From Lachnospiraceae bacterium (GTDB lineage Bacteria; Bacillota; Clostridia; Lachnospirales; Lachnospiraceae), in assembly GCA_029054245.1 (NCBI GenBank), contig JAIDFQ010000041.1, positions 62,001 through 126,000 on the forward strand: a stretch of DNA of 64,000 nt, in the 5' to 3' direction. The notes beneath the pieces are model-generated. The model was given only the letters and a program-made list of their open reading frames with translations, made no database searches and was not told the DNA's origin. Position numbers and translations under genes: made by a program. This document shows, in pieces, positions 17,823 through 18,749 of the stretch (position 1 is the stretch's first letter; every line of letters starts with the position of its first letter).

Positions 17823-18040
17823 ATATAAAAAAGTCCCGAATTGATCTTAAAATCAATTCAGGACGAATCAAACAATCCGCGGTGCCACCTGATTTACTGC
17901 CATGCAGTCACTTAACCGATTTTTATTTGCAGCTGATAAAGTTGTTTTTCATATGAATTCATTCTGCCGGCTTTCCACCATCCCGGCTCTCTGGAAGCGA
18001 TAATCCATACTACTCGTCTTCGTCGTCGCTACGTACACTG
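17823..18040 (-). promoter_or_regulatory. T-box riboswitch leader of aspS
   Basis: The minus strand carries the canonical T-box AGGTGGCACCGCGG (complement of 17877-17890). After it comes a terminator hairpin (17827-17864: GTCCTGAATTGAT paired with ATCAATTCGGGAC, then a T-run). Upstream is a Stem I with an AGTA element (18011-18014), an AGAGAG bulge and a GGTGG-type distal loop. On the 3' side of Stem I the specifier region reads GAAA-AAC-A (specifier at 17944-17946), by analogy with the known glyQS leader. AAC is an Asn codon; no GAC appears in that position. Uncharged tRNA binding the T-box would favour antitermination and aspS expression. Confidence 0.93.
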
Positions 18041-18042
18041 AT

Positions 18043-18071
18043 ATCATAATGTAGAAAGTTATATTTGTCAA
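18043..18071 (-). promoter_or_regulatory. Sigma-A promoter of the aspS T-box transcript
   Basis: On the minus strand TTGACA (complement of 18066-18071) and TATGAT (complement of 18043-18048) are 17 nt apart, placing the start just before the T-box Stem I. Confidence 0.8.
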
Positions 18072-18195
18072 TTTAAATTTAGGCTTTATTATACTCAATT
18101 ATTTTTAAAATATTTTATTATGATTGTTTGTTCATTATTTTAAAAACCTTTGCTATTATTATATTCTCTTCAGTGAATCATAACAGGTTCCTATC

Positions 18196-18696
18196 TGGGG
18201 GCATCAAGGGGACGGCAGGGCTGCAAGCAGGATAAAGGGGCTGTCAGGCGCAGGCTATTGGCGGCGGGGCGGCAAGATTGCAGGGCTGGCTGGGAAGTAG
18301 GATGGGAGGAGGGGGGGAAGCAACACAGCATCTGGGGCGGCGCCTGCTTTATCTTTGCAAGGCTCTGGCAAAAAATCGCTAATTTCACTTGCAGAATGGT
18401 GAGTAACCAGGGGAATCCGGCATGGATGCCGGATTAAGAGCCATGCGGCACGGATGCCGCACGGGCTCTGCCCCGTACGGTTTGAAATATCTACCCCATT
18501 CTGCTAGTGAAATGCGATTTGACGACGAGCCTTGCAAAGATAAAGCAGACGCCGCCCCAGATGCTGTGTTGCTTCCCCCTCCTCCCATCCTACTTCCCAG
18601 CCAGCCCTGCAATCCTGCCGCCCCGCCGCCAATAACCTGCGCCTGACAGCCCCTTTATCCTGCCTGCAGCCCTGCCCGTCCCGTTGATGTCCCCCA
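18196..18696. repeat. Giant near-palindrome, arms of about 200 nt, unknown function
   Basis: The left arm (18196-18399) and right arm (18496-18696) are nearly exact reverse complements. There are only a few substitutions and short indels over most of their length, and a poorly matched patch near 18366-18390. The 96-nt centre holds two smaller perfect hairpins (18414-18435, with arms AATCCGGCAT/ATGCCGGATT, and 18438-18468, closed by GAGCC/GGCTC). The element is much more GC-rich than its flanks and includes G-runs at 18286-18317. No credible gene lies in it. It sits upstream of both the aspS and MFS promoters, outside both transcripts. I do not recognise it as a known ncRNA, IS or attenuator. 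Confidence 0.9.
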
Positions 18697-18720
18697 CAAC
18701 CGTTTTATATAGAAAACCAC

Positions 18721-18749
18721 TTGGAAAAATGCCCCTTCTAATGTATAAT
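18721..18749 (+). promoter_or_regulatory. Sigma-A promoter of the OFA-type transporter
   Basis: TTGGAA (18721-18726) and a perfect TATAAT (18744-18749) are 17 nt apart, 60 nt before the ATG at 18810. Confidence 0.75.

Follow-up and report, generated by a model that had tools for sequence, protein, structure and literature searches.

The 501-nt palindrome at 18196-18696 of the window (the whole 64,000-nt stretch of Lachnospiraceae DNA analysed here), situated between aspS and the gene for an OFA transporter, is best read as a mobile, palindromic, MITE-like carrier of putative CsrA-binding hairpins, an interpretation that we consider probable from comparison of sequences. The palindrome would be one copy of a dispersed, non-autonomous element with a TwoAYGGAY RNA at its centre. 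Already known are the family itself, listed in 2010 as a probable RNA (Weinberg 2010, PMC2864571) and named in Rfam 15 among the families improved with R-scape (PMC11701678), and the 2014 proposal that TwoAYGGAY binds CsrA as an sRNA, the validation of which was called work in progress (PMC4333381). New here are the linking of this RNA to a carrier of MITE-like kind and a test of its co-occurrence with csrA; among the matches listed from the open-licence literature, neither a description of TwoAYGGAY as a mobile palindromic repeat nor an earlier test of that co-occurrence was found.

The palindrome, first noted from the sequence alone, is real: its arms and an RF01731 core are confirmed over 501 nt (Table 1), and it runs on inward through the core's own stem. 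The arms pair over 162 matched columns, with four A-C mismatches as read on the plus strand. These are the four transitions of the sequence-only reading, which lie exactly at 18226, 18255, 18275 and 18343 and are all A-C on plus, so G-U on minus; a G/G mismatch (18208/18683) and five gap positions are additional to it. The inner 51-68 nt of the left arm are homologous to the arms of three other copies (L039, L040 and L050), and the outer left arm is without a match to other arms in pairwise comparison of the copies. With RNA parameters the predicted fold reaches -443 kcal/mol and is beyond chance, since 100 shuffles gave -206 +/- 7 kcal/mol (z -34); extending the core by about 20 nt either way (18346-18546) yields z -12 on the plus and -14 on the minus strand. 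An assembly artefact, which the sequence-only reading had kept in view, is very unlikely, because there are many copies with differing arms and because separately assembled relatives carry TwoAYGGAY elements at the same site (L094, L100 and L124). The flanking promoters are directed away from the palindrome, as had been described; both are divergent and both look intact. The T-box leader of aspS scores below the RF00230 gathering score (73.5 vs 93 bits).

Table 1. Coordinates of the palindrome, its core and its surroundings (positions in the window unless a contig is given), with related deletion derivatives
Feature	Position	Strand	Evidence or remark
aspS T-box leader	17856..18035	-	RF00230, 73.5 bits, E 1.3e-15; adjoins insertion, outside element
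Probable aspS promoter, TTGACA-17-TATGAT	18043..18071	-	Intact beside insertion; read from sequence
Segment absent from empty-site relatives (approximate)	18081..18712	.	Alignments to L096, L098, L101, L104, L109, L111
Left arm	18196..18365	+	170 nt; arm extension outward from core
TwoAYGGAY core (RF01731), type B	18366..18527	+	cmscan 81 bits, gathering 43, E 8.3e-14
GGA-loop hairpin 1 (AATCCGGCATGGATGCCGGATT)	18414..18435	+	GGA 18424-18426; sequence and fold
GGA-loop hairpin 2 (inner stem GCGGCACGGATGCCGC)	18437..18469	+	GGA 18452-18454; sequence and fold
Right arm	18528..18696	+	Near-exact reverse complement of left arm
Probable OFA transporter promoter, TTGGAA-17-TATAAT	18721..18749	+	Intact beside insertion; read from sequence
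Core-deleted or partial derivatives	L211 C69:73491-73626; L212 C38:109577-109630; L214 C38:7372-7633	.	TIR and exact 8-bp duplication

The centre of the window palindrome is a TwoAYGGAY RNA, matched over the full length of the model (1-168) and corresponding to own-genome copy C36:80366-80527. The pair of perfect central hairpins noted earlier corresponds to the GGA-loop hairpins, with the loops AUGGAU (18422-18427) and ACGGAU (18450-18455). The earlier suggestion of a large structured RNA therefore stands as far as the centre, a known Rfam family, is concerned, and fails on the strand, as the GGA loops mark plus, not minus, as sense. Among the type B copies counted, the GGA of hairpin 1 is kept in 31 of 31 and that of hairpin 2 in 30 of 31. 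Across 42 of the 45 copies in the genome (L052, L058 and L059 being left out as truncated or deleted), the loop GGA is intact in 82 of 84 hairpins, the exceptions being one GAA (L031) and one inverted loop (L020). Unpaired columns overall, GGA included, show a mean conservation of 0.79 in type A and 0.82 in type B. Moreover, a CsrA-type motif occurs 88 times on the plus strand vs twice on the minus strand over the 45 own-genome cores, and 71 times vs once in 44 cores of other genomes, strand counts that are not independent of the search, as the Rfam model itself selects the plus strand; shuffled cores carry the motif in 3.4 of 45 on average. Either CANGGANG or CAGGANG is present on the plus strand of 42 of the 44 measured other-genome cores (minus strand, 1/44), in stems and arms that differ, and the loop GACAAGGATGTC occurs three times among them. 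These 44 loci are what remained of 48 submitted after four were skipped at contig ends; L174-L176, L192, L193 and L198-L200 are outside the measured set.

The palindrome, at first taken for a lone feature, is a repeated element by both BLAST and RF01731. The question of other copies in the same genome is answered by 45 RF01731 matches, 44 of them above the curated cut-off; a 511-base query likewise returned 44 BLAST matches in the host genome, a number in which the query's own locus is counted on each strand and reverse matches to some copies are counted too. Two subfamilies can be distinguished: type A, with mostly higher RF01731 scores, and type B, which includes the window copy. Arms extend 33-170 nt outside the core in 43 of the 45 copies, the window copy having the longest, and the exceptions are L052 (12 nt) and L058 (at a contig end). 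Arm sequences differ from copy to copy, with a complementarity of 96% (3902/4050 ungapped columns) within the genome; in the 44 loci measured from other genomes, arm length is 0-195 nt and pairing is weaker (1771/2088 ungapped columns). Adjacent pairs also occur. The genome holds four (C36:55886(-)/56245(+), C69:30527(-)/30994(+), C69:111489(-)/111949(+) and C34:121661(-)/122335(+)), in three of which a type A copy stands beside a type B copy, and others are found in G008 (two), G037, G208, G472 and L100. Among the matches listed, at least 10 adjacent pairs are divergent, with starts about 270-680 nt apart, and at least two are tandem (G166 C36 and G515 C1).

Occupied and empty sites in relatives are found at two loci. 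At the aspS/OFA site, for which relatives (mostly Lachnospiraceae) were located via the OFA transporter and alignments obtained for 40 of 80 loci, nine have compact spacers (L096, L098, L101, L104, L108, L109, L111, L112 and L117), the spacer sequence being examined in seven. An Rfam scan found no RF01731 in seven of the nine (L096, L098, L101, L104, L108, L112 and L117), L109 and L111 lying outside that scan. The absent segment takes in, besides the element, some 115 nt of AT-rich DNA to the left and some 16 nt to the right, with ends that vary by relative; in L098 the bases matching window positions 18080 and 18713 are only 3 apart. In L094, whose OFA protein is 98% identical, the same site carries a different type B element; L100 has a divergent pair of type A copies there and L124 a single one. 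The spacers of L100 and L124, two close relatives, differ in the way expected had a deletion joined one type A copy's outer left arm to the inner arm of the copy next to it. In L097, L099, L107, L114 and L115 the spacer contains 2-3 kb of other DNA, and in L113 a shorter unrelated stretch. At the second locus, C69:46710, a 473-bp element segment stands against 54 bp in G684, 96 in G682, 116 in G690 and 122 in G679, with other sequence of 230 bp in G687 and 1017 bp in G688. A G-rich stretch ending in TGTCGTTTC or ATCGTTTC at the otherwise empty orthologous sites of G682 and G687 (L202 and L203) looks like a type B left arm at its inner end, and is possibly a solo arm left after loss of the core and right arm.

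Furthermore, some copies end in GTAACAGTTCAGCC-like terminal repeats. If as many as two mismatches are allowed, this motif is found 38 times in the genome vs 4 times for a reversed-pattern control, and TIR-like ends on both sides (at most 5 of 14 mismatches) are present in 15 of 43 copies and absent from 28. Target duplications were compared in 20 elements, namely the 15 copies with both ends and five stretches picked by the TIR motif, of which four have exact 8-bp duplications, two match at 7 of 8 and 14 have none. The exact cases are L042 (ATAAGGAT) and the core-deleted or partial L211, L212 and L214, which also have matching terminal repeats; the near cases are L009 and L020, the other 12 of the 15 end-bearing copies differing at three or more of 8 positions. 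Motif-picked L213 and L216 lack an 8-bp duplication, and no end pair was found for L215. When flanks were swapped among the 15 copies, 0 of 210 comparisons were exact and 2 of 210 had one mismatch. An apparent duplication at L050 was discounted as a palindrome inside the arm, and no TIR or duplication was seen in type A copies. The window copy is absent from the 15 copies with TIR-like ends, and the scan gave no target duplication for it; because its own TIR ends and duplication are lacking, it is termed only MITE-like, and its place in the repeat family is given by its core and inner arms. Mobility of the palindrome family as a whole is well supported by these comparisons. A DNA hairpin landing site, one of the roles envisaged earlier, gives way to a hairpin that itself reads as the mobile element, in view of the empty sites, TIRs and duplications.

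Movement would depend on a transposase acting in trans, perhaps of the IS66 type, a candidate that we offer as a guess. Both ends could be seen for a single IS66 element of the genome (C23:6945-9667). It is bounded by GTAAGCGTCAAACC and flanked by an exact 8-bp duplication (AAGACGAC); it resembles the palindrome family in its GTAA start and the 8 bp and departs from it in TIR sequence, and its match to the transposase is distributed over two frames. For the remaining IS66 matches, which are situated at contig ends or close to them, no end pair was found, and no helper with palindrome-type ends was found among the genome's IS66 matches. REP/BIME-like mobilization by a RAYT was rejected, the Y1 transposase family PF01797 having 0 matches in this 98% complete genome.

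Selection on an RNA helix should tolerate G-U above A-C and should not readily yield mirrored indels. In 35 copy pairs, 375 mirrored double substitutions (219 transitions and 156 transversions) stand beside 2 imperfect doubles and 91 single substitutions. Of 99 left-arm indels, 81 are mirrored in the right arm at the same size and within 6 nt; mirrored indels reach 11 nt. As these pairs overlap, seven disjoint pairs served as a second count, with 61 double vs 30 single substitutions and 11 of 14 indels mirrored. Mismatches in the arms of the 45 copies number 42 G-U vs 55 A-C as read on plus (binomial p 0.22). In core stems taken together with the adjoining 14 nt of each arm, type A gives 13 v 15 and type B 14 v 13 (G-U v A-C, again on plus); in other genomes the figure is 69 v 57. 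Because indels and double transversions are mirrored without a preference for G-U, upkeep of arm complementarity is assigned mainly to a DNA process, template switching, which is well supported by these comparisons. Template switching homogenises the arms of inverted repeats and can invert the spacer (PMC8794818, PMC8604942), to which the present arm homogenisation and loop inversion correspond, whereas the arms here are much longer and sit within a repeated mobile element. The inverted loop is that of hairpin 2 in L020 (G000 C45:151016-151178), where the reverse complement of the usual sequence is found (GGCATCCATGCC), as expected of template switching in a palindrome. One arm would thus be copied from the other, the arm sequence changing fast while pairing is kept. 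The helix covariation of TwoAYGGAY is at least partly explicable by such DNA-level correction, and is therefore weaker evidence for an RNA than it appears; the conservation of the loops is unaffected by this objection.

CsrA, the presence of which a sponge presupposes, is encoded in the genome by one csrA, directly after fliW. The family set comprises 299 genomes from 298 genera, 45 with TwoAYGGAY and 154 with csrA; csrA is present in 44 of the 45 TwoAYGGAY genomes vs 110 of the 254 others (odds ratio 58, p 1.7e-13; here and in the class set, genomes are counted irrespective of kinship). In a class-wide set of 391 genomes, which shares some family genomes with the first, csrA accompanies TwoAYGGAY in 31 of 36 genomes vs 94 of 355 (p 2e-12); with the window's family left out, the counts are 25 of 30 vs 86 of 345 (p 2.7e-10). 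Both large RF01731 searches used stricter filters and at most 9 and 7 candidates per genome, copy numbers being lower bounds, and 9 of the 36 class TwoAYGGAY genomes have no match above the RF01731 cut-off. Six TwoAYGGAY genomes lack a csrA match, one in the family set (G168) and five in the class set (G472, G513, G552, G570 and G612); completeness is under 90% for three of them. G264, which belongs to the same genus as the window's genome, has csrA but gave no match to TwoAYGGAY. Because csrA nearly coincides with fliW (154 v 149 of 299 genomes, all fliW genomes having csrA), the co-occurrence could mirror a motile lineage, with motility as the confounder. Five of the 299 genomes have csrA without FliW, two of these five csrA matches being borderline (E 5.0e-4 and 3.3e-4); TwoAYGGAY is present in two of the five (G023 and G143) vs 1 of 145 with neither gene (p 0.003). 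G143 (98% complete, csrA, no FliW match) has the top RF01731 score of the family set and at least 9 copies, one of its loops being GACAAGGATGTC, and it is a good place for separating CsrA from motility. From the loop sequence and the co-occurrence with csrA together, binding of CsrA by the core hairpins appears a reasonably good prospect.

Other explanations differ in what they ask of the palindrome. Were the whole 500-nt hairpin transcribed as a long dsRNA with arm pairing under RNA selection, as the sequence-only reading leaned towards, the very strong predicted fold, the complementary arms of 43 of 45 copies and the four window transitions, all G-U on minus, would fall into place. Over the 45 copies, however, the preference for G-U is absent on either strand, and the arm and core-stem counts given above rule out a minus-strand RNA argued from such a bias; mirrored indels of up to 11 nt and the 156 transversions among 375 doubles are hard to reach via G-U intermediates, and simple scores bring out no promoter or terminator signal, so that we regard a selected dsRNA as highly improbable. 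Scarcely better placed is a cis-regulator or bidirectional terminator of the flanking genes, which is very unlikely even though RF01731 is typed Cis-reg in Rfam; the table of the discovery paper marks cis-regulation 'n', probably not (PMC2864571). Relative to mechanically called neighbouring ORFs the copies show no preferred orientation (13/9/9/9, 5 undetermined), and in 41 copies a simple sigma-70 score is equal on both sides and the T-count after the arms shows no significant difference between sides; because of this, no fixed cis role and no promoter belonging to the element can be made out, and a terminator or cis-element was rejected as a candidate. The site, moreover, lies between divergent promoters, no flanking promoter reads into the palindrome in the window, no sign was seen that the window copy controls aspS or the OFA transporter, and relatives lack the element at the same site.

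A purely selfish palindromic MITE, its core mere structural or transposition baggage with no host role and its link to CsrA coincidental, would account for the palindromic form, the TIRs with their 8-bp duplications, the empty sites and the derivatives without a core, as well as for the want of a promoter signal in the edge scores and the unbiased orientation. We consider it rather unlikely, as it leaves aside the GGA loops kept in nearly all hairpins, the plus-strand CANGGANG/CAGGANG motif that persists in other genomes despite different stems and arms, and the strong co-occurrence with csrA. That the element has a TwoAYGGAY core, is multi-copy and mobile, and has its arms maintained at the DNA level is, taken jointly, very probable. 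On the preferred reading of a MITE-like carrier of CsrA-binding hairpins, the plus strand would be transcribed by leakage from outside or from an unrecognised promoter, and the transcribed core would fold into two hairpins with ANGGAN loops as CsrA sites. Many copies together might then sequester CsrA as a sponge, or, alternatively, copies might tie CsrA to whichever host transcript contains them. A physiological CsrA sponge has, in our estimate, somewhat less than an even chance. A 2020 review describes the arrangement of a sponge RNA beside FliW as one that remains to be determined in any species (PMC7652899). With similar reserve, we tentatively picture a transposable element turned into a distributed CsrA sponge beside FliW, its copy number setting the strength of the sponge and its arms renewed through template switching.

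Correia elements and RUP are examples of bacterial MITEs or palindromic intergenic repeats. The present family is like bacterial MITEs in being short, non-autonomous, intergenic and present in many copies, with deletion derivatives and, in some copies, TIRs and duplication, and unlike them in its near-perfect, copy-specific arms of up to 170 nt and its conserved central RNA with protein-binding-type loops. The sponge sRNAs CsrB, CsrC and RsmX/Y/Z concentrate many sites in few genes, whereas here two sites per unit are spread over many dispersed units, no own promoter was found by the scoring of copy edges, and the genomes hosting TwoAYGGAY mostly also have FliW. The likeness to these sponges lies in the hairpin-loop GGA, which fits the SELEX consensus of CsrA, RUACARGGAUGU, with GGA mostly in a hairpin loop (PMC7652899). 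With published TwoAYGGAY (RF01731) the window copy shares the full-length covariance model, the two GGA-loop hairpins and an origin in Clostridia, and differs in belonging to a dispersed set of about 45 copies within far longer palindromes, some with TIRs and duplications.

For palindromic repeats generally, these results advise caution, as covariation can stem from template switching of DNA, beyond selection on RNA. The co-occurrence with csrA, repeated in other families, gives the CsrA proposal concrete form and links it with a carrier that is mobile and multi-copy. If true, selfish DNA would set the dose of a global regulator in these bacteria, and a sponge RNA and FliW would act on the same CsrA.
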